Notes under the pieces: generated by a model
The model's input: only the letters and a program-made list of their open reading frames with translations
Databases searched by the model: none
Told to the model about the DNA's origin: nothing
Made by a program: the position numbers and the translations under genes
In this document: positions 22,594-32,702 of the stretch, one piece after another
Layout: every line of letters begins with the position of its first letter
Position numbering within the stretch: the stretch's first letter is position 1
From: Oscillospiraceae bacterium
GTDB taxonomy: Bacteria > Bacillota > Clostridia > Oscillospirales > Ruminococcaceae
DNA length: 32,702 nucleotides
Assembly (NCBI GenBank): GCA_017460955.1
Contig: JAFTZY010000061.1
Span: 1 to 32,702, forward strand
Direction: 5' to 3'

Positions 22594-25137
22594 TCAGCGC
22601 TCCCCGGCACCGGCAGCACGGACCTCCTGCCAGAGCTCCTGGGCGGACATGCGGTAGGCGCCGTTGCCGAGGATGATGATCTGCTCCATGCCGTCCGAGG
22701 TCGCCACGCGCACGCGGTAATCCTTCGCCAGCTCATGGGAGATGCGCTCGATGTAGGTATCCGCCGTCTCGGCCTCCTTGGTATACACCACATCCACGCC
22801 GCCGATGCGCTGCACGCTCCCCGTGCCGCCCTTGACGCGGTAGGCATCGAACACCACGATCAGCCGGCAGTCCCGGTAGCCGCGGTAGTTGTCCAGGAGA
22901 TGGACGAGCCGGTCACGGGCCGCATCGAGGTCCTGCGCGGCGATCCTTTTCAGCTCCTCCCAGGCAAAGATGATGTTGTACCCGTCCACGAGCAGGTACT
23001 CCGGTCCCGAGGGCAGGGGCACGCGCTTCCGGGAAACCGTTCGCTCGGGGGCGGGCGTATGGAAATTGCGCCGCTCCTCCCGCGCATCCCGGCGGATGGT
23101 GCCGTAGGTCTGCTCGAAGATCTGTTTGAGCTGTGCATCCTGCTCGGCACTGCCCGTGTACGCCTCCCGCACGGGACGGACTCGGCGCTCCTGTACCTGC
23201 ACGGGGCGTTCCTTCTGCGGGTCCTCCGTATGCATATGGGCGGCCACCTCGTCCCAGTGGACCAGCACCCCCGCACCGTGGGAGCAGAACACCGAGTCCG
23301 GCGAGCCCTCCGGATCCGCAAGCGGATCGTACCCGATGCGCTCGATCACGGGCGCCGGCTCCGGACACGGGGCATACCCGTCCGGACGGCAGGTGAGCCG
23401 TCCCCGGCCGTGGGTGTACTCCATCACGGCCGTGCGGTAGGTCATCATGAGTGCGGCGGGGGCACGTCCCTCGATCACGGCCGTCTCCCCGAGGGTCTGG
23501 GGTGCCAGGGGCCTTGCACCGCGCATTTCCAGGTCCGTGAGCGCCCGGCCCACGCTTGTCAGCGGCACCTCGAGCCGGAACCGGTACCACGGCTCAAGGA
23601 GCACGCTTTCCGCCTGCATCAGGCCCTGCCGCACCGCCCGGTAGGTCGCCTGCCGGAAATCCCCGCCCTCGGTGTGCTTCTTGTGCGCACGCCCGGCAAG
23701 GAGCGTGATCTTCACATCGGTGAGCGGCGAGCCCGTGAGCACGCCCGGATGCTGCCGCTCGCCCAGGTGCGTGAGGATCAGGCGCTGCCAGTTGCGGTCA
23801 AGTGCATCCTCCCGGCATACCGTGGCAAGCTGCACGCCGCTGCCCGGGGCGCCTGGCTCGAGAAGCAGGCGCACCTCGGCATAATGCCGCAGCGGCTCAT
23901 AATGCCCGAGTCCCTGCACGGGTGCGGCGATCGTCTCCCGGTAGGCCACACCCGCCGGGACAAAGCCTGCCCGGATCGAAAAGCGCTCCTCCAGGACGGA
24001 TGCGAGCACATCGAGCTGGATCTCGCCCATGAGCAGCACGGTGATCTCCCCGCCGCGGAAGGCAACATGGAGCTGGGGATCCTCCTGCTCGAGCCTGCGC
24101 AGTGCGCTAAGGGCGGTATGGATCGGCACCTCGGCGGGCAGCGCCACGGCATAGCGCAGAATGGGCTCGAGCGTGGGGGCGGGGGCATCGGGCTCGGTGC
24201 CAAGGCCCTGTCCGGGGAAGGTCTGTGTCAGGCCCGTGACGGCGCAGACCGTCCCGGGGTACACCGCATCGGCGGGGGTGAATTTCGTCCCGGAGTAGAG
24301 CCGGATGGCATCCACCTTCTCCTCCCAGGGCTGCGGGGTCTCCCCTTGCAGGACATCCTTCGGGCGCAGCACGCCGCCGGTGACCTTCAGGTGGGTCAGG
24401 CGCTTGCCCTGCGCCTCCTCGGTGATCTTGAACACCCTTGCGGAAAAGGCGTCACGGCGCGGCAGCGGAAGGGTGCAGTGCGCAAGGAGGGTGAGGAGGC
24501 GTTCGATCCCCTCGCAGCGCAATGCCGACCCGAAGCAGCACGGGAACACATGGCGCTGCGTCACGGCGCGGGCGATGCCGTCCATGGGGGCGCATCCCGT
24601 TTCGAGCACGGATTCCATGAGCGCCTCATCGGTGGCGCCGACCGCCTCATAGAAGGCATCGTCCTCCTGCGTGAAATCCACGCATGCAGGGTCGAGCCGT
24701 TCCCGCAGCTCCTGCATGATCGCCTCCTGCGAGGAATGCGAGAGGTCCATCTTATTGACAAAGACGAACACTGGAACCCCGGCATGGTCAAGGAGGCTCC
24801 AGAGCGTTTCGGTATGGCTCTGCACGCCCTCGGAGCCGCTCACGACGAGCACGGCATAATCGAGGACCGAGAGGGTGCGTTCCATCTCGGCGGAGAAATC
24901 GACATGTCCGGGGGTATCGAGGAGGGTGAGCTCCGCGTCCGGCAGGAGGAGCCTTGCCTCCTTGGCAAAGATGGTGATGCCCCGGGAGCGCTCGAGCGCA
25001 TCGGTATCGAGGAAGGCATCGCCGTGATCGACGCGGCCGAGCCGGCGCAGCATGCCGGCAGTGTAGAGCATCGCCTCGGAGAGGGTGGTCTTGCCCGCAT
25101 CCACATGGGCGAGCATCCCGACGGTCAGACGTTTCAT
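22594..25137 (-). CDS. EF-G/Tet(M)-like translational GTPase fused to a YacP/Rae1 NYN nuclease domain
   Basis: The 847-residue protein has two parts. Residues 1 to about 600 are a translational GTPase of the EF-G/Tet(M) group: P-loop AHVDAGKT (10-17), RGIT (52-55), DTPGH (74-78), NKMD (128-131), then domains II-V. The domain IV loop reads AHKKHTEGGDF (484-494), not the SPVSTP-type loop of tetracycline protection proteins. After a linker (about 615-712) comes a NYN/PIN-like domain of the YacP type: LLVDGYNIIF (715-724), VVFDAYRVKGG (761-771), YTKEAETADTYIE (785-797) and ATSDGMEQ (812-819). In Bacillus the separate YacP (Rae1) cleaves mRNA in the ribosomal A site. The fusion suggests GTP-driven delivery of the nuclease to ribosomes (inference). 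AAAGGAG fixes the start at 25137. Confidence 0.9.
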   Translation of the reverse strand: MKRLTVGMLAHVDAGKTTLSEAMLYTAGMLRRLGRVDHGDAFLDTDALERSRGITIFAKEARLLLPDAELTLLDTPGHVDFSAEMERTLSVLDYAVLVVSGSEGVQSHTETLWSLLDHAGVPVFVFVNKMDLSHSSQEAIMQELRERLDPACVDFTQEDDAFYEAVGATDEALMESVLETGCAPMDGIARAVTQRHVFPCCFGSALRCEGIERLLTLLAHCTLPLPRRDAFSARVFKITEEAQGKRLTHLKVTGGVLRPKDVLQGETPQPWEEKVDAIRLYSGTKFTPADAVYPGTVCAVTGLTQTFPGQGLGTEPDAPAPTLEPILRYAVALPAEVPIHTALSALRRLEQEDPQLHVAFRGGEITVLLMGEIQLDVLASVLEERFSIRAGFVPAGVAYRETIAAPVQGLGHYEPLRHYAEVRLLLEPGAPGSGVQLATVCREDALDRNWQRLILTHLGERQHPGVLTGSPLTDVKITLLAGRAHKKHTEGGDFRQATYRAVRQGLMQAESVLLEPWYRFRLEVPLTSVGRALTDLEMRGARPLAPQTLGETAVIEGRAPAALMMTYRTAVMEYTHGRGRLTCRPDGYAPCPEPAPVIERIGYDPLADPEGSPDSVFCSHGAGVLVHWDEVAAHMHTEDPQKERPVQVQERRVRPVREAYTGSAEQDAQLKQIFEQTYGTIRRDAREERRNFHTPAPERTVSRKRVPLPSGPEYLLVDGYNIIFAWEELKRIAAQDLDAARDRLVHLLDNYRGYRDCRLIVVFDAYRVKGGTGSVQRIGGVDVVYTKEAETADTYIERISHELAKDYRVRVATSDGMEQIIILGNGAYRMSAQELWQEVRAAGAGER

Positions 25138-25188
25138 GGCGGGGGCTCCTTTCATCAAAATCTATGACTGGGTATTGAAAACCGGTAT

Positions 25189-25270: not shown

Positions 25271-25516
25271 ATGAACAACGGGACACCGATCCGCATTCTC
25301 ACCCTGGACCGGGTGGGCGTCGTCAGCGAGATCACGGGGATCTGCTCGGGACTCGGGATCGGCATCCGCACGCACAACGCCCGTGTGGTGCGGGGCAGCC
25401 GGGGGGAATACCTCTCGGATTTCCGGGCGGTCCTGGACGACACGGAGCCCGAAACGCTCCATCGGCTGCGCTGCCGGCTCTCCCACATCAAGGGCCTGCG
25501 CCGTGTGGAAATATGA
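25271..25516 (+). CDS. stand-alone ACT-domain protein
   Basis: The 81-residue protein is almost entirely one ACT fold. It has the opening strand IRILTLDRVGVVSEITGICSG, a central IGIRTHNARV strand, and SDFRAVLDD, then a final RVEI strand. The DRVGVVSEIT turn is the ligand-binding loop of many amino-acid-sensing ACT domains. No catalytic domain is attached. AAGGAGGG precedes ATG 25271. It is transcribed divergently from the GTPase-nuclease gene and ends in a shared terminator. Its ligand is unknown; a role with the ACT-shortened SerA 7 kb away is only a speculation. Confidence 0.8.
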   Translation: MNNGTPIRILTLDRVGVVSEITGICSGLGIGIRTHNARVVRGSRGEYLSDFRAVLDDTEPETLHRLRCRLSHIKGLRRVEI

Positions 25517-25773: not shown

Positions 25774-25803
25774 AAAAAGCCCCCTCTCAAGGGGGGCTTT
25801 TCT
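25774..25803. terminator. bidirectional terminator between the ACT gene and the kinase-deaminase operon
   Basis: GCCCCCT (25779-25785) pairs with AGGGGGGC, flanked by AAAAA on the left and CTTTTCTT on the right. It can end both convergent units. Confidence 0.85.
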
Positions 25804-25816
25804 TCATGTATATCGC

Positions 25817-27892
25817 TTAGAATCCCCGCTTCTTCATCTGCTTGCGGAATTCCGCATCGATCTTGGCTGCCTTCTTCTTCTCCTTGGCAAGGCGCTGCAT
25901 CTCGGCAGCGGACAGCGGCGTATCGGCGCTCAGGCCGGTATCTGCCTGCTGCTGCGGCATGGTGCGCACGCCGCGGCTCGGTGCAGCACCGGGCGCGTCA
26001 TCCATGAAGCGGGACAGACGCTGCCTGAACACGGAGCCGTCCGCCTTTGCCTGGGGAGACCCCTGCGAATAGCTCGACTGCTGCGGCATCTGCTGGCTGT
26101 GCGCGGGCTGGGAATACATGGGCTGCTGCCCGTACATCGGCTGCTGGTACATGGGCTGCTGGGACTGCCCGGGCTGCATGTACATGGACTGCTGCTGCGG
26201 CTGCTGGGATCCACCGGCCTGCATATACATGGACTGCTGCTGCGGCTGCCCGGGCTGGATATACATGGACTGCTGCTGCGGCTGCCCGGGCTGGATATAC
26301 ATCGACTGCTGCTGGGGTCCTCCCGGCTGGATATACATCGACTGCTGCTGGGGTCCTCCCGGCTGGATATACATCGACTGGCGCTGCGGCTGCTGTGCAT
26401 ACATCGGCTGCTGCTGCGCATACATGGGCTGCTGCGGCTGCTGGAGCTGCTGGGACTGCTGGAGCTGCTGGGACTGCTGTGCATTCTGCTGCATGCCCGG
26501 CCTTGCGACCGCGCCGTAGATCGGCTGGTTCTGGGGCAGGGCAGTGAAGCCCTGCTGCTGGGGCTGCTGCGCCTGTGCAGGACCGCCCTGCATCGGCGGC
26601 TGGTAGAAATTCGGATCGCTTGCGGGCGGCGGCTCGGGGGATTCCCCTGCCTCGAAGCCGAATGCGGAGAAATCGCCTTCCTCCGGCACTTCCATCGTCC
26701 GCACGGGTGCCATGGCCTCGGGTGCCTCCTCGGCAAACTCGTTGGGTTCCTCGGCAAATTCGTTGGGCGCATCCTGTGCAAATTCATTCTGCGGCTCCAT
26801 GGCCTGAGCGGGCGCTTCGGCAGCAAATTCATTCCGCGGCTCCATGGCCTGAGCGGGTGCCGGTGCGGGCGCTTCGGCGGCAAACTCGTTCTGCGGCTCC
26901 ATGGTCTGGACCGGTGCCGGTGCGGGCGCTTCCGCTGCGAACTCATTCTGCGGCTCCATGGTCTGGACCGGTGCCGGAGCGGGCGCTTCCGCTGCGAACT
27001 CGTTCTGCGGCTCCATGGTCTGGGCCGGTGCCGGAGCGGGCGCTTCCGCTGCGAACTCGTTCTGCGGCTCCATGGCCTGAGCGGGGGCCGGAGCTTCCTG
27101 CGCAAACTCGTTCGGTTCCTCTGCAAATTCGTTCGGTTCCCCGGCGGCGTCCTCTTCCTCCGTCTGTTCGGTGAAGGTCCGTGCCGGGTCGGGCTCTGCC
27201 TGGGCGTTCACGAATTCGTTCTCCAGATCCGCAAAGACGCTCTCGATCGAGGGCTTGTCATCGGGCTTCACCGTCCCGGTAAAGGACGGATCGGGCTCAC
27301 CCTGCACGGAGGCGGGCATGGCCATTTCCGGCGGGATCTCAAAGCCGTCGATATCAAGTGCGGCCTGTGCAGCGGGGACTTCCGGCGCCTCGGGTGCGGG
27401 CGTCTCAAACTCCGCGGGATCGGGTACTTCAAACTCTGCCATGGCGTCCTCGGTGCTCTCCCCCTCGGGATCGAACTGATCCTCGGGGCCGAGCGAACCG
27501 GGGGCAAGCAACTCAATGGCCTTGACACTGCGGTTGGCAGCGATATAAATGTCGGTGAAGCGGTTCTCCGGATTGGTCTCGCACAACAGCTTGATGCAAG
27601 ACTCGCACGGCTGGCTGACCTCACGGGTCGCAAAGGAGATCGTGATGAGCTGATCCACCTTGTCCTCGTCCGTCTGGGACAGCGCCATGATGGCGTTGTA
27701 TTCCGGGCATGCCCGCATGAGCTGTCCGGCGCTGATCTTCACGCTTGTCACGCCGGCAAACACATGCTGCCGGTCGGTGATCATTACGCAGAACTCCGCA
27801 TCGCGTCCGGAGACGAGGTTCGGCTCGACCAGCTTGACATTCTCCATGAGCCGGACGGCGTAGTTATACAGATCCTTGGACTCCATTTCCAT
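25817..27892 (-). CDS. cytidine-deaminase-like domain fused to long tandem repeats
   Basis: The 691-residue protein begins with a domain of about 135 residues matching the tetrameric cytidine deaminase fold: CPEYNAI (C62, E64) and PCESC (C96, C99), the complete zinc ligands and catalytic glutamate at the usual spacing. The strand that normally reads GVNVENAS reads GVTSVKIS, so the Asn and Glu that bind ribose are lost. An acidic stretch follows, then 19-residue repeats around EPQNEFAAEAPAPAP (275-365) with other NEFA copies. Next is a Gln-rich region with 12-residue QQQSMYIQPGGP-type repeats (about 504-583), and a basic tail (about 620-691). It may be a scaffold or client of the kinase/phosphatase encoded upstream (inference). 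Start at ATG 27892; last gene of the operon. Confidence 0.75.
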   Translation of the reverse strand: MEMESKDLYNYAVRLMENVKLVEPNLVSGRDAEFCVMITDRQHVFAGVTSVKISAGQLMRACPEYNAIMALSQTDEDKVDQLITISFATREVSQPCESCIKLLCETNPENRFTDIYIAANRSVKAIELLAPGSLGPEDQFDPEGESTEDAMAEFEVPDPAEFETPAPEAPEVPAAQAALDIDGFEIPPEMAMPASVQGEPDPSFTGTVKPDDKPSIESVFADLENEFVNAQAEPDPARTFTEQTEEEDAAGEPNEFAEEPNEFAQEAPAPAQAMEPQNEFAAEAPAPAPAQTMEPQNEFAAEAPAPAPVQTMEPQNEFAAEAPAPAPVQTMEPQNEFAAEAPAPAPAQAMEPRNEFAAEAPAQAMEPQNEFAQDAPNEFAEEPNEFAEEAPEAMAPVRTMEVPEEGDFSAFGFEAGESPEPPPASDPNFYQPPMQGGPAQAQQPQQQGFTALPQNQPIYGAVARPGMQQNAQQSQQLQQSQQLQQPQQPMYAQQQPMYAQQPQRQSMYIQPGGPQQQSMYIQPGGPQQQSMYIQPGQPQQQSMYIQPGQPQQQSMYMQAGGSQQPQQQSMYMQPGQSQQPMYQQPMYGQQPMYSQPAHSQQMPQQSSYSQGSPQAKADGSVFRQRLSRFMDDAPGAAPSRGVRTMPQQQADTGLSADTPLSAAEMQRLAKEKKKAAKIDAEFRKQMKKRGF
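26143..26383 (-). repeat. 36-bp in-frame tandem repeats (SMY/Gln-rich)
   Basis: About six direct copies of a 36-bp unit encode QQQSMYIQPGGP-type peptides, with drift to MYMQ at the distal end and shorter QPMY units beyond. The copies are contiguous, without spacers, and keep the reading frame. Confidence 0.9.
26776..27070 (-). repeat. 57-bp in-frame tandem repeats (NEF-type)
   Basis: Four full 57-bp copies and one shortened 45-bp copy encode EPQNEFAAEAPAPAPxQxM units. The DNA copies are nearly identical, pointing to recent expansion or exchange. Shorter EPNEFA units flank both sides. Confidence 0.9.
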
Positions 27893-27922
27893 AGATGTTC
27901 CTGCCTTTCTGTCGTGGAGGTC

Positions 27923-28840
27923 TTATGCTGTGGGCTGGCTGTAGAAGCAGGTGCGGTTCTTGCCGCCGAGCTTGGCGCTGTATATGGCTGCATCAGCGCA
28001 GTCGAGCAGGAGCTCGGGATCGGCACCGTCACGGGGATGGGCAGCAACGCCGTAGCACATGTTCACGGAAACGGGCTCACCGTTGACCATAACGGGTTCG
28101 CCGAAGAGCGCACGCAGCTGCTCGATGATGTTGAGGATATCGGCCTCGGTGGGGGTGCCGTCGAGGATGATGCCGAACTCGTCGCCGCCCGTTCTGGCGA
28201 CGGTGTAGCGGCTGCCGCTGTACTTGTCGATGCGCTCGGCATAGGTGCGGATCACATCGTCACCGGCCTTGTGGCCGTAGGCATCGTTGATGCGCTTGAA
28301 ATCGTCCACATCGGCTGTGATGACGGTGAAGGGAGCTCTCTGGGCCACACGGTCACCCAGATCATCCAGGAAACGCTGCTTGTTGGGCAGGGTGGTCATG
28401 CGGTCGTAGTAAGCAAGATAGGTCAGGGCGTCGTCCTTTTCCTTCATCACGCGGTTCTGCTCGATCATCTGCTCATAGCTCTCGTTGAGCTCGGCATGCA
28501 TCTTGCGGCTGCGGTCAATGTACACGAAGATGATGGTCACGGTGAGGATGGTAGCGATGGGGGTGATGATGCCGGGCAGTGCCCCCATGTTCTGGCTGCG
28601 CAGGGTGGACATGAGCGCGGACAGTGTGGTCAGACCGTTGAGGATGAGTGCTGCGATGAAGCCGCGCTTACCGTTGGTCACCACGATGACCGTGGAGATG
28701 AGCACGAGGATCTGACCGAACACACCGTTGAAGGACGGTGCCAGGGAGAGCGGTCCCTGGATCAGAAAGACTGCCAGATAGAGGATGATCCCCACAACGA
28801 GGATGAAAATATTAAAGCCCTTGTTTTTTTCCTGATTCAT
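27923..28840 (-). CDS. membrane GGDEF diguanylate cyclase
   Basis: The 305-residue protein has four to five N-terminal membrane segments (about 10-28, 37-55, 60-78 and 88-108), a helical signalling linker (110-140) and one GGDEF domain. The active site GGDEF (218-222) is intact, as is the metal and substrate stretch ADVDDFKRINDAYGH. The position of the inhibitory RxxD site before GGDEF reads RYTV, so product inhibition at that site is probably absent. It should make cyclic-di-GMP. It lies 43 bases after the PP2C gene and 30 bases before the deaminase-repeat gene. Confidence 0.92.
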   Translation of the reverse strand: MNQEKNKGFNIFILVVGIILYLAVFLIQGPLSLAPSFNGVFGQILVLISTVIVVTNGKRGFIAALILNGLTTLSALMSTLRSQNMGALPGIITPIATILTVTIIFVYIDRSRKMHAELNESYEQMIEQNRVMKEKDDALTYLAYYDRMTTLPNKQRFLDDLGDRVAQRAPFTVITADVDDFKRINDAYGHKAGDDVIRTYAERIDKYSGSRYTVARTGGDEFGIILDGTPTEADILNIIEQLRALFGEPVMVNGEPVSVNMCYGVAAHPRDGADPELLLDCADAAIYSAKLGGKNRTCFYSQPTA

Positions 28841-28883
28841 AAATGTTTTTTCCTTTCCTTATTATGCGTGGATGCGGGTTTTG

Positions 28884-29837
28884 TCACTCCACCTGGAGAT
28901 TGGGGTTGCGCCTGAGCTGATTTTTCAGCTTCTGCTTCTGGATGCGGGCAGCCTGCTCGGCCTTGCGCATCTCGGCGCGGCGCTTGTTCTTCTCGACCTG
29001 CGTGCGCAGGATCTGCAGATGCTGTGCCAGGAACTGCGGATCGAAGGCACCGGCCATGGAGATGTCGTCCTGCGTACCGAAATTGGTGCGCTTGACAAGG
29101 TTTCTGGTGATGACCTTATCGAACTCGCCGAGCTGGCCTAAATGACTTGCGATGATCGTGTGGTAGTCGAGGAAATCCTCGCTGCTGCGGAAGGACGTGT
29201 AAAGTCCGTCCGTGGACACGAACACGGCCAGGGGCGCCTCCATCGTGTAGAAGCTGTTGAACAGGTCGATGGCATTGGAATTGCTCATGGACGCTGTGAG
29301 GTTGGCAGGGCAGCTCTCATCGTCGATAATGGGCATTTCTGCCTGTGCATCCTGGTCAATGACGACCATACTGCCGTCGCCGATCTGGATGCCGAAGGTG
29401 AATTTCCGGCCGTACACCACGGCAATGAGCGTGGTGCCGTAGATGGACTCGGTGCGGATGTCCTCAAACTCCTCCTCGGAGAAGGGGGCCCGCTCGAGTG
29501 CGGTGAAGGGATTCTCCTGCAAATGCCGGAGGATCGCCCGGTCCCATCTGGAAATGATCTGCTTTTCGATCTTGCGGATGAGCCGTTTGGGATCCCGCTC
29601 GAAGCTCTCCTCAAAAGCGGGGGCATCCGCATAATAGCTTGCGACAGTCTGCACGGTGGCTGCAACGGCCATGCGTGCGCCGACGTCACTTCTGAAATGC
29701 TTCTTGCTGCCGTGGCCGTCCGCCACTGCGGCAAGCGCGTAATTTTCGTAGACCTTGAAATCTGAAAAATCCTGGCATACCGTTCCTTTTGCCGTATGAC
29801 TGGCACCGATCACGGAATGGTAAAATCCGCTGTACAT
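28884..29837 (-). CDS. PP2C-family protein phosphatase
   Basis: The 317-residue protein is a PP2C/PPM Ser/Thr phosphatase of the kind found beside TerY-like proteins. Metal-binding and core motifs are present: CQDFSDF (21-27), VADGHGSKKHFRSDVGA (38-54), YGTTL (133-137), IGDGSMVV (152-159), STDGLYTSF (208-216) and QDDISMAG (256-263). After residue 268 a charged coiled-coil tail rich in Lys, Arg and Gln follows. It is encoded between the vWA and GGDEF genes and is the likely reverser of the kinase at 30708-32066. Confidence 0.9.
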   Translation of the reverse strand: MYSGFYHSVIGASHTAKGTVCQDFSDFKVYENYALAAVADGHGSKKHFRSDVGARMAVAATVQTVASYYADAPAFEESFERDPKRLIRKIEKQIISRWDRAILRHLQENPFTALERAPFSEEEFEDIRTESIYGTTLIAVVYGRKFTFGIQIGDGSMVVIDQDAQAEMPIIDDESCPANLTASMSNSNAIDLFNSFYTMEAPLAVFVSTDGLYTSFRSSEDFLDYHTIIASHLGQLGEFDKVITRNLVKRTNFGTQDDISMAGAFDPQFLAQHLQILRTQVEKNKRRAEMRKAEQAARIQKQKLKNQLRRNPNLQVE

Positions 29838-29873
29838 ATTCTGAGCACCTCCCTTATCTTACCGTACAGCGCC

Positions 29874-30686
29874 TTACCAGCCGCTGTCGAAGGGAACGTC
29901 GCCGTAGCCCTCGGATTTGATGATCTCCTGGATCTGCTCGCCCAGGAGCTTCTGCTTGGACTCGAATACGTCCTGCATGCCCAGCTCATGCTGGGTATCA
30001 TCGGAGAGGGTCATGCTCTTACTGCCGATCTGGGACGAGGTCACAGCGATGATCTTAATGAGGTGTGCGAGCTGTCCGCCGGAGTAGGCATGCACTACGG
30101 TATCCTTGGTGCCGGTGAATTCTGCGAGCATGTCGTCATTGGCCTCCTTGCCGATGCCGAGTGCCGTTTTCAGACCGTACTTATACCAGCTGTTCTTTTT
30201 CAGGGAGGCAAGCCCCGTCTTGTAATCGTCCGACGGATAGCCGTCCGTCATCAGGAACATAACGGGAGCAAAGGACAGGGACGGGGAATTGAGGAAGCTG
30301 TTGCGGGACATGCGGATGGACAGCTCCTTGAAGGCAGCGCCCATACTGGTCACGCCGTCCGCACGCAGGCGGATCCATTCAAAGTCCTCGATCGAGATGG
30401 GCTCGGAGTACATCCACATCACGGAATTCGAGAAGGTCAGCACGGCGATCTTGACATCCGTGTCCGCCTCGCCGACTCTGCGGATCTCCGGGATCAGCTC
30501 CTCCATGACGGTATTGAGCTCACCCATCTTGGTGCCCTTCATACTGCCGGAGGTATCGATCAGGAAGAAGATGACCAGGCTCTTGCGGGAAACACCCGTC
30601 GCGTTGAGCGGATCGTCATCGTAGAAGCTCAGCTCGCCGTCGAGCTCATCGCCCATATCCAGCGCTGTATCCATATCATCAAGCAT
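29874..30686 (-). CDS. TerY-like von Willebrand factor A domain protein
   Basis: The 270-residue protein has an acidic N-terminal segment and a vWA domain with a complete metal-ion-dependent adhesion site: DTSGSM (44-49), T113 in DGVTSMG and D148 in LMTDGYPSD. The overall pattern, with SVMWMYSEPI and the late GGQLAHLIKII segment, fits the TerY group of cytoplasmic vWA proteins. A start at 30686 is preferred to ATG 30695 because the AAGGAG site overlaps the earlier ATG. Together with the adjacent kinase and PP2C genes it makes a TerY-P triad. Confidence 0.88.
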   Translation of the reverse strand: MLDDMDTALDMGDELDGELSFYDDDPLNATGVSRKSLVIFFLIDTSGSMKGTKMGELNTVMEELIPEIRRVGEADTDVKIAVLTFSNSVMWMYSEPISIEDFEWIRLRADGVTSMGAAFKELSIRMSRNSFLNSPSLSFAPVMFLMTDGYPSDDYKTGLASLKKNSWYKYGLKTALGIGKEANDDMLAEFTGTKDTVVHAYSGGQLAHLIKIIAVTSSQIGSKSMTLSDDTQHELGMQDVFESKQKLLGEQIQEIIKSEGYGDVPFDSGW

Positions 30687-30707
30687 TGACTGCATCTCCT
30701 TTCTTCA

Positions 30708-32066
30708 TTATGCTTCGTCGTTGATGCGGGCCTTGATGCCGCCGCCGAAGTCGATCACGATGCCGTTCCACAGCGGGAAGCCCTTGCCGGGTGCGACATT
30801 GTAGAACTGGTTGTCGGGCATCTTGGCACGCCATACCTGACGCGACAGGTTCTTGATGCCCATCATGCCGGGCTTGAGCTTGTTCTCGACGAGCTCGCCG
30901 GTCACAGTCGTGAAATCATCGGAGGCAAGCTCGGTCTCACATGCATAGAACTTACAGCCCAGGTACAGCGGGATACGGTAATCCCGGTTGTTGAAGGCAA
31001 TGCTGGCGTACTCACTGCCGCAGCGCGGGCAGCGGTAGAAGTGATTCCCGGCCTCCTCGAACATGGAGGCGAAATTGGTGCGTCCGCAGGTGCAGGAGAT
31101 GATCTCCGAGCGCAGGCGGATGAAGAGCTTCTGCCACTCGTTCTCGATGATGCGGCGGTTCGGCTCTGCGATGCCGGTCGTGAACGAATGGATGAAGGCC
31201 TCGCGGATGTAGTCGGGATAGATCTTCCAGAACTTGATGACGTTGTCATGGATGCCGCGCACGGGGCGGTTCGAGGCATCGTTCGGGTCATACACAAAGA
31301 CGGCCTGCTTGCCGTAGTGCTTGAGCTCTGCGGTCTCGGTCAGGCAGATGTCCTTGACCACCTTCTCGCCCTCCATGGGGTCGCCGCGGAACAGGAGCTT
31401 GAAGAGCACGACGGCCAGCGAATACTTGTCGGTCTGCACATTGGGCTTGGCAATGCCCCTTACGACCTCGGGGGCCATATAGCCGGGCTTGCCGCCGATG
31501 CCGAAGTTGCTGCCGTCGGGCGCGATGTTGTCACAGTCGCACACGAGGATGTCGCCGTTGTTGACGTTGATGAAGAAGCCGCCGTCGTTCAGGTCCTGGT
31601 AGCTCTTGCCGGCTCTGTGGAGCTGGCGGAAGGCATTGACGATGTTGATGACCGCCGTCACGAGTGCAAACAGGCTCTTGAACTGCACGGGGGACTTCAT
31701 GGCACGGCCCGTGAGCGGATCGATGTCCAGCTTGTAGGTGTTGAGGATGTCCACGAAGGACTCATAGGTCTCCGGACGCACGTCCATGAGGTAGCCGAAG
31801 CCGCCGGTCTCCAGGGGCTTGGTGAGGTACTTGGGCCACAGGAATTTCTCGCTGGGCGCACCGTCGCGGATATTGGTCTCGATGTTGTCGCGGAAGGCGC
31901 GGGGATTGCGGATCTTGTCCACGTCGTACCATTTCAGGGCATAGTTGATGCCGTTGAATTCCACGAGGTATACGATACCCTGGCCGCCGCTGCCGAGCAC
32001 CTTGAGCACCCTGGCAGCCCCGCCGTATTCCATTTCAATGTATTGTCCGATCTGAAGCTCTACCAT
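30708..32066 (-). CDS. Ser/Thr kinase-like protein with zinc ribbon (TerY-P type)
   Basis: The 452-residue protein has an N-terminal protein kinase fold: glycine loop GSGGQGIV (25-32), Lys45 in YALKWY, catalytic Asp158 in YQDLNDGGFF, a DFG-equivalent CDCDN (176-180) and YMAPEV (196-201). The catalytic loop deviates from HRDLKPEN; QDLNDGG fits the diverged kinases of TerY triads. A zinc ribbon follows: CTC (C325, C327) and CPRC (C346, C349). The last 70 residues (NLSRQVW, then VAPGKGFPLWNGIVIDFGGG) suggest a degenerate FHA-like module, which is less certain. The N-terminus has no membrane segment. It precedes the vWA gene by about 20 bases. Confidence 0.88.
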   Translation of the reverse strand: MVELQIGQYIEMEYGGAARVLKVLGSGGQGIVYLVEFNGINYALKWYDVDKIRNPRAFRDNIETNIRDGAPSEKFLWPKYLTKPLETGGFGYLMDVRPETYESFVDILNTYKLDIDPLTGRAMKSPVQFKSLFALVTAVINIVNAFRQLHRAGKSYQDLNDGGFFINVNNGDILVCDCDNIAPDGSNFGIGGKPGYMAPEVVRGIAKPNVQTDKYSLAVVLFKLLFRGDPMEGEKVVKDICLTETAELKHYGKQAVFVYDPNDASNRPVRGIHDNVIKFWKIYPDYIREAFIHSFTTGIAEPNRRIIENEWQKLFIRLRSEIISCTCGRTNFASMFEEAGNHFYRCPRCGSEYASIAFNNRDYRIPLYLGCKFYACETELASDDFTTVTGELVENKLKPGMMGIKNLSRQVWRAKMPDNQFYNVAPGKGFPLWNGIVIDFGGGIKARINDEA

Positions 32067-32105
32067 GATCTATCAACCCTTTCTCATTAGTATGCTGGAT
32101 ACGCA

Positions 32106-32702
32106 TCATCCGAAGATCGCGCCCTTGCTGATGGCCTCGGTCCGCAGACCTGCCTGTGCGCAGAATTTATGGACATAGGAGTTTTCATAGCACTTGATGA
32201 CAAGGCCGGGGTCGCACATGGCGAAGGCATCGTCAGCGATGTACTTGACACTGTCCGGGATAAAGAGCTTGCGCAGGCTCGTGCAGCCTGCAAAGGCCTG
32301 TGCGCCGATGCTGCTCACAGTCGTGGGGATCTCCACGACCTCCAGGCTGTGGCAGAACGAGCAGGTGCTCTCCTCGATCTCGGTCACGCCCTGCGGGATG
32401 CGCAGCACATTGAGCTTGCCGCAGGCATTGAACGCCCCGCGGCGGATGACGCGCAGATTCTCCGGGAGGGAGACGGTCTTGAGGCGCTTGCAGTCGGAGA
32501 AGGCGTACTCTCCGATGCCGGTCAGGCTGCGGGGGAGCTCGACCGAGCGCATAAAGCCGAAGCCGTCAAAGCAAAAGCTCTCGAGCAGCGTGTAGCCGTC
32601 GGGCACCTTGACATTGCCCTTGAGGCGGGAGCGTGCGGCATCTGCGATATGGAAGATGCGCTGCTCGGCTTCACGGGCCGGCTGTGCGGGTGCTGCCGGG
32701 GG
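32106..32702 (-). CDS. BspA-type leucine-rich-repeat protein, 5' end outside the window
   Basis: An open frame runs to the right edge without a stop, so the start is missing; the visible part is 198 residues. Residues near the edge are Pro/Ala/Gln-rich (PAQPAREAEQR), then a short helical stretch. About five LRR_5 repeats of the BspA/TpLRR type follow: ESFCFDGFGFMRSVELPRSL, IGEYAFSDCKRLKTVSLPENL, RRGAFNACGKLNVLRIPQG, and so on. No cell-wall anchor or signal sequence is visible. An internal GTG at 32606 could be mistaken for a start, but the frame continues upstream in good protein sequence. It lies 39 bases before the kinase gene in the same operon. Confidence 0.85.
   Translation of the reverse strand, partial: PPAAPAQPAREAEQRIFHIADAARSRLKGNVKVPDGYTLLESFCFDGFGFMRSVELPRSLTGIGEYAFSDCKRLKTVSLPENLRVIRRGAFNACGKLNVLRIPQGVTEIEESTCSFCHSLEVVEIPTTVSSIGAQAFAGCTSLRKLFIPDSVKYIADDAFAMCDPGLVIKCYENSYVHKFCAQAGLRTEAISKGAIFG

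Follow-up and report, generated by a model that had tools for sequence, protein, structure and literature searches.

A kinase–vWA–PP2C triad encoded with a GGDEF protein and a deaminase-fold repeat protein in a chromosomal operon conserved in gut Ruminococcus

Results

Organization of the operon

The stretch of DNA analyzed here (hereafter, the window) has a length of 32,702 nucleotides and represents the entire contig C37 (GenBank JAFTZY010000061.1) of the draft genome of an Oscillospiraceae bacterium (assembly GCA_017460955.1). It carries an operon of six minus-strand genes that all run in one direction and encode a leucine-rich repeat (LRR) protein, a Ser/Thr kinase, a von Willebrand factor type A (vWA) protein, a PP2C-type phosphatase, a GGDEF protein, and a cytidine-deaminase-fold protein with a long repetitive tail (Table 1). 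The intergenic gaps down this row measure 39, 12, 36, 43, and 30 bases. The six-gene arrangement given in a preliminary description of the window is confirmed. A scan of the window found no promoter or terminator match on the minus strand between the six genes, which is weak evidence because the scan totals were near the shuffle means.

Table 1. Coordinates of the operon, its subfeatures, and two neighboring genes in the window (MIDAS, metal ion-dependent adhesion site)
Feature	Position	Strand	Evidence
LRR_5 gene, 3′ part; operon gene 1	32106..32702	−	Pfam LRR_5; 5′ end cut at contig end
Ser/Thr protein kinase with C-terminal zinc ribbon	30708..32066	−	Pfam Pkinase
vWA protein, MIDAS motifs intact	29874..30695	−	Pfam VWA, 5.1e-9
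PP2C-type Ser/Thr phosphatase	28884..29837	−	Pfam PP2C_2, 2e-35; DGHG, STDG, and DD motifs present
GGDEF domain behind hydrophobic N-terminal region	27923..28840	−	Pfam GGDEF; GGDEF and DVDDFKRIND motifs intact
Cytidine-deaminase-fold protein, 691 amino acids; long Q/P/A/E-rich repeat tail, basic C-terminal helix	25817..27892	−	
Deaminase-fold domain, residues 1–150	27443..27892	−	Zinc site CPE (62–64) and PCESC (95–99) intact
Tail repeats of deaminase-headed gene	26115..27140	−	57-base × 5.1 (26802–27094); 36-base × 5.4 (26200–26394); 9–21-base units
Conserved C-terminal segment of deaminase-tail protein	25817..25924	−	[S/T]xx[E/D]...KK..A[KR]...F
Terminator-like operon end: hairpin with T-rich tail, found on either strand	25780..25796	.	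Promoter/terminator scan
Small ACT-domain-like protein, convergent with the operon	25271..25516	+	Under Pfam cut-off
EF-G-like GTPase, 854 amino acids, fused to C-terminal YacP-type NYN domain	22594..25158	−	GTP_EFTU, EFG_IV, EFG_C

Conservation across loci and genomes

A scan of public genomes yielded 76 loci, labeled Ruminococcus, Oscillospiraceae, Clostridia, or Clostridiales, with one labeled Alistipes. In 55 of the 59 testable loci (16 loci were omitted as too short, plus L106), the LRR, kinase, vWA, and PP2C genes form an unbroken row on a single strand; a contig of R. flavefaciens XPD3002 (L060) holds all six operon genes. The four exceptions are L100, L102, and L103, which have no PP2C gene beside the vWA gene, and L104, which has another order. 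The deaminase-headed protein was detected at 63 of the 76 loci. Among the 13 misses, L089 retains the C-terminal half at the contig end; of the other 12, only L104 continues beyond 3.1 kb on the 3′ side of the vWA gene, and L106 ends inside that gene. The deaminase gene is thus missing only from L104 where there is clear room for it, and the preliminary view of the six genes as a single row that stays together holds; their separation in related genomes, which the preliminary description had named as the contrary outcome, did not occur.

Within the genus, the operon vWA gene is present in 28 of 38 genomes (9 of the 12 good-quality ones), and therefore the operon-type deaminase match is not universal in the genus either. 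The six genes constitute an operon that is chromosomal and conserved in gut Ruminococcus.

The kinase–vWA–PP2C triad

The zinc ribbon of the window kinase reads CTCG...CPRC. The kinase Lys, the catalytic Asp, and the four ribbon Cys are invariant across 25 aligned kinases, and the ribbon pattern is found in 70 of 77. It is missing in the full-length proteins of L098, L100, L102, and L103; the remaining kinases without it are a fragment (L047) and two L104 frames. These four full-length loci have lost both zinc sites, that of the kinase ribbon and that of the deaminase domain. The catalytic loop reads YQDLNDGGFF in 74 of the 77 kinases and YQDLNGGGFF in one, with two unmatched. We take the Gly of this motif to stand at the position where kinases usually carry the catalytic-loop Asn; among 12 loci compared, the position is occupied by N, G, or S, so that the protein may or may not be a pseudokinase.

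All three MIDAS patterns are present in 75 of 77 vWA proteins. Of 70 phosphatases, 52 show the complete set of three PP2C patterns, and most of the others are without the last one. TerY-P systems consist of a TerY vWA protein, a PP2C phosphatase, and a kinase with a zinc ribbon (Anantharaman et al. 2012, as summarized in PMC11090510 and PMC4978471). The triad fits this description as excerpted there, in keeping with the TerY-P type first proposed for the window, in which the vWA protein would be a putative relative of TerY; no NCBIfam TerY match appeared. Neighbors of related triads in other families, of which ten were looked at, include Sel1, LRR, helicase, and transglutaminase genes. A second, distant kinase–vWA–PP2C triad with vWA proteins 38–39% identical occurs at L029 and L030 (genomes G002 and G025).

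The deaminase-fold protein and its GGDEF neighbor

The Pfam deaminase match of the window protein is below threshold (E 0.034), and its N-terminal domain shows the deaminase fold of the cytidine deaminase superfamily. We compared 73 distinct proteins: those of the 63 loci, that of the window, and those of nine additional distinct loci found in other genera; merging duplicate DNA (L141 = L081 and L142 = L078) reduced this set from 75 to 73, the complete proteins from 70 to 68, and the count of upstream gene pairs (see below) from 32 of 59 to 32 of 58. The zinc site (C/H-x-E and PCxxC) is intact in 39 of the 73 proteins, including that of the window. In the other 34, at least one of the four residues is lost, whereas the fold, the tail end, and the gene position are kept, and one Lys of the C-terminal segment is invariant in all 68 complete distinct proteins. 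Because the zinc site is repeatedly lost while the fold and the C terminus are retained, the comparison argues for binding, not deamination, as the common function of the deaminase-fold proteins. Enzymatic activity may nevertheless be present in the window, as both active-site motifs (zinc site and GGDEF) are intact there.

A GGDEF gene lies adjacent and on the same strand for 45 of the 73 operon-type deaminase-tail genes (at L137, L140, and L155 the GGDEF state was assigned by hand). The window GGDEF protein is predicted to be an active diguanylate cyclase, probably so because GGDEF and DVDDFKRIND are both intact. Several GGDEF copies, many of them off the strict motif, are arrayed inside the operon in L034, L040, and L105. 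L154:9628–10986 (+) encodes another deaminase-tail protein, which has MMNGQYMQQG-type repeats and no zinc site; an EAL-GGDEF gene lies in the neighborhood, with one gene between, and L154 was kept out of all counts.

Tails with low QNPYGMS content have no adjacent GGDEF gene in 12 of 12 cases, whereas 41 of 56 other tails do (p 2e-6); these 12 cluster on the kinase tree as judged by eye, and co-evolution of tail composition with GGDEF is not claimed. Nor do we claim that a zinc-intact paralogue is kept in genomes whose operon protein is zinc-less: in a by-eye count of the family sample, the paralogue accompanies seven broken proteins and one intact protein in the genome, and several broken ones have none.

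A second deaminase–GGDEF pairing

The profile of the deaminase domain also recovers ordinary deaminases and a second family of 149–288 residues. At the first 10 loci of this family (L151–L153 and L157–L163), the deaminase gene is immediately followed by a co-directional GGDEF gene. Overall, 15 of 18 second-family genes have a GGDEF neighbor, compared with none of the 16 ordinary deaminases whose surroundings were retrieved (L149, L150, L165–L174, L176, and L221–L223, some with an extra N-terminal domain); L175 had also been taken as a control, but the gene caller gave no deaminase there. Short deaminase-fold proteins are encoded at L217, L218, and L220, and two of them precede a GDSL-lipase/dockerin gene.

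His-Ala-Glu and PCxxC are invariant in 10 aligned second-family proteins. Among the 15 GGDEF partners, the motif is GSDEF in 13 and GDDEF in 2, and the first metal Asp is replaced by Asn in 12 of the 14 that can be scored; because of these changes the partners are probably inactive cyclases. Although related loci are not independent observations, the deaminase gene comes first in the second family, the reverse of the operon order, and this speaks for the deaminase/GGDEF pair having been assembled more than once. A tail-bearing second-family gene occurs in 12 genomes, every one of which holds the operon (8, family sample) or its vWA gene (4, genus sample: G011, G020, G021, and G023). Of 345 genomes of the order searched for the second family, one (G056) gave a match, and this match is an operon-type protein.

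Genes upstream of the LRR gene and other flanking genes

Full-length LRR relatives possess an N-terminal helical region and, in some cases, also a zinc ribbon. A helical stretch that resembles this N terminus by eye is encoded in the same genome as the window, at C74:2–412 (−). In relatives, the operon is flanked by genes for a Peripla_BP_4 protein and for a four-helix-bundle sensor that includes a GGDEF domain, and the best matches to both in the window's genome, with domains confirmed, lie at the start of contig C74. The ends of C37 and C74 have no exact overlap, so we infer the adjacency of the two contigs from gene content. The sensor motif in C74 is SGNEF; across 34 matches in all loci it is NEF in 31 and DEF in 1, with 2 unscorable. 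Of the 58 distinct loci that extend 3 kb or more upstream of the LRR gene, 32 have the Peripla_BP_4/sensor pair within 4.5 kb upstream of that gene, and none of the other 26 does. The pair is co-directional with the operon in L054 and L138.

Ten other window proteins were run through Pfam and are housekeeping proteins or unmatched (one without match). They include a carbohydrate phosphorylase, 4-alpha-glucanotransferase, RecG, RmuC, a fatty-acid-kinase-like protein, DNA polymerase III delta, PSP1, an FAD-binding protein, and the EF-G-like GTPase.

Discussion

The reading that we tentatively favor, and that we regard as nearly evenly poised, is a chromosomal phospho-signaling operon with a kinase/PP2C switch, a deaminase-tail protein as substrate or scaffold, and a GGDEF partner. 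The operon looks like everyday signaling rather than phage defense or metal resistance. The data directly show which genes are present, how they are arranged and conserved, the state of folds and motifs, and the recurrence of the deaminase/GGDEF pairing; the mechanism set out next is inferred. The six genes would be co-transcribed, and the zinc-ribbon kinase and the PP2C phosphatase would act together as a TerY-P-type reversible Ser/Thr switch, for which the vWA and LRR proteins are putative assembly or adaptor subunits. The deaminase-tail protein is most likely the substrate or scaffold of the kinase and phosphatase, with a predicted binding rather than enzymatic role for its deaminase fold. 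The membrane GGDEF protein would work together with it, cyclic di-GMP (c-di-GMP) probably being made where the motif is intact, as in the window. The sugar-binding-type lipoprotein and the four-helix-bundle sensor with its degenerate GGDEF domain, both encoded next door, may supply the input.

Several observations weigh against this phospho-signaling reading. Kinase activity is assumed in a protein with Gly for the catalytic-loop Asn, and no PP2C gene adjoining the vWA gene was found in the three exceptional loci L100, L102, and L103. The GGDEF neighbor is missing at 28 of the 73 operon-type deaminase-tail genes, and c-di-GMP therefore cannot be obligatory. The state of the zinc site appears linked to an adjacent GGDEF gene (present/absent, 31/8 for intact and 14/20 for broken sites; Fisher p 0.0015 for the 73 distinct proteins, 4e-4 with the two duplicates kept in), but this link is not significant when reduced to 6 independent pairs on well-supported branches. 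The FKxRL tail motif has no clean link to GGDEF (27 with and 14 without the motif at GGDEF loci, 13 and 16 at the rest, duplicates included). Finally, a GGDEF neighbor had been predicted beforehand for eight new genus matches of the second family, and the prediction held for five of them; the five successes carry a tail with an LKxR motif, whereas the three failures (L217, L218, and L220) have no such tail, a split that was noticed only after the result.

Two rival explanations concern the deaminase-fold protein and its GGDEF neighbor. The protein might be an enzyme that acts on a nucleoside or nucleotide, possibly the GGDEF product, and is gated by the kinase triad in a nucleotide-signal system. 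In support of this, the zinc ligands and catalytic Glu are intact in 39 of the 73 proteins, the window protein among them, and so is the invariant site of the second family, whose 10 aligned members each stand beside a GGDEF gene. We consider such an enzyme unlikely, given that a zinc-site residue is lost in 34 of 73 proteins whose fold, tail end, and gene position persist, and that none of the 15 second-family partners keeps the strict GGDEF motif. Synthesis of a modified nucleotide, one of the outputs suggested in the preliminary description, cannot be a function common to the entire operon family because the zinc site is broken in 34 and GGDEF missing beside 28 of the 73 proteins. The row might also consist of two side-by-side units, an LRR–triad unit and a GGDEF/deaminase-tail unit, without functional contact. 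In L088, L090, and L091–L094, the triad occupies one strand and the deaminase-tail and GGDEF genes the other, and the second family is found apart from the triad; yet the units are still neighbors in those same loci, and the tail-bearing second-family genes occur in genomes with the operon or its vWA gene (12 of 12), although shared ancestry could explain this. On balance, the absence of functional contact seems distinctly unlikely.

Two further rivals concern the known settings of TerY-P triads. One is a system for stress or metal responses that is linked to genes of tellurite resistance (Ter). In its favor, the triad architecture matches that of TerY-P in the excerpted sources, in which an association of TerY-P with ter genes is usual, not required (CoCoNuTs). 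TerD (PF02342) is present in 25 of the 38 genus genomes, in 23 of 28 with the operon vWA gene versus 2 of 10 without it (raw counts that ignore kinship), and TerD arrays lie ∼27 kb from the operon vWA gene on the same contig in G015:C5 and G033:C3. However, TerD had no match in the window's genome or in G011, G022, G023, and G024, all of which carry the operon vWA gene, and none was found among the neighboring genes run through Pfam (part of all neighbors). The Ter link raised at the outset is weakly supported, and a Ter system appears quite improbable, although other species may have a loose connection to Ter. Anti-phage defense, which had also been suggested, is very improbable. The kinase matches the mad6 and PD-T4-6 models of PADLOC 2023 (best 1.9e-11), some restriction systems are accompanied by TerY-P triads in the portions seen of PMC11090510 and PMC4978471, and a related triad at L194 adjoins a DEAD-helicase gene. 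Against this, PADLOC gave no match for the vWA, PP2C, LRR, or deaminase-headed protein, one marginal 2TM match for the GGDEF protein (0.015), and no system-specific match; the flanks among the checked genes are housekeeping in the window and L097, and the operon vWA gene is as widespread in the genus as stated above.

We file the operon as a TerY-P variant, with the deaminase/GGDEF pairing as its newest element. It shares with published TerY-P systems, as far as the excerpts describe them, an adjacent and co-directional ribbon kinase, MIDAS vWA protein, and PP2C phosphatase. It differs in that no ter or restriction gene is seen alongside, in its constant LRR protein, in the GGDEF and deaminase-fold repeat proteins, and in the Gly for Asn. 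The same excerpts (PMC11090510 and PMC4978471) tie TerY-P to restriction or stress and mention neither GGDEF nor deaminase. Literature searches for deaminase with GGDEF or TerY with GGDEF did not find the pairing, most subscription papers being outside their coverage; the arrangement, unfamiliar in the preliminary description, has thus remained so.

In SiaABCD of Pseudomonas aeruginosa, a PP2C/kinase couple sets the phospho-state in a diguanylate-cyclase pathway, according to the part of PMC7647112 consulted. The operon differs by its eukaryote-type ribbon kinase and its vWA, LRR, and deaminase-fold proteins, so that the analogy is functional only; no SiaC-type anti-sigma-antagonist-like Pfam match was found among the six genes, no remote-homology search having been made. 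Cytidine and blasticidin-S deaminases (PDB codes 3mpz and 1wn5) show 17 and 16% identity, and the operon family is set apart from them by its low-complexity tail, basic C-terminal helix, often lost zinc site, and signaling-operon setting. The sensor and the second-family partners resemble the degenerate GGDEF interaction modules outlined in the excerpt of PMC5635695 in that a GGDEF fold with an incomplete site stands beside a partner. In contrast to those modules, the partner here is a deaminase-fold protein with a disordered tail, and the window GGDEF motif is intact.

In the excerpted literature, TerY-P triads are discussed with tellurite resistance or restriction; here, they are widespread in Ruminococcus chromosomes with neither adjoining. 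Because Ruminococcus has cultured rumen strains, it offers a tractable setting to learn the phosphorylation targets of the triad. The recurrent pairing of a deaminase-fold protein with a GGDEF protein, of which we found no description, is open to simple interaction and enzyme assays. More speculatively, and with a rather low probability in our view, tailed deaminase-fold proteins might be a new partner class of GGDEF membrane proteins, in which a retired or re-purposed nucleotide enzyme would serve as a phospho-controlled and perhaps condensate-forming scaffold and, in Ruminococcaceae of the rumen and gut, would pass on a sugar-type signal from outside the cell.

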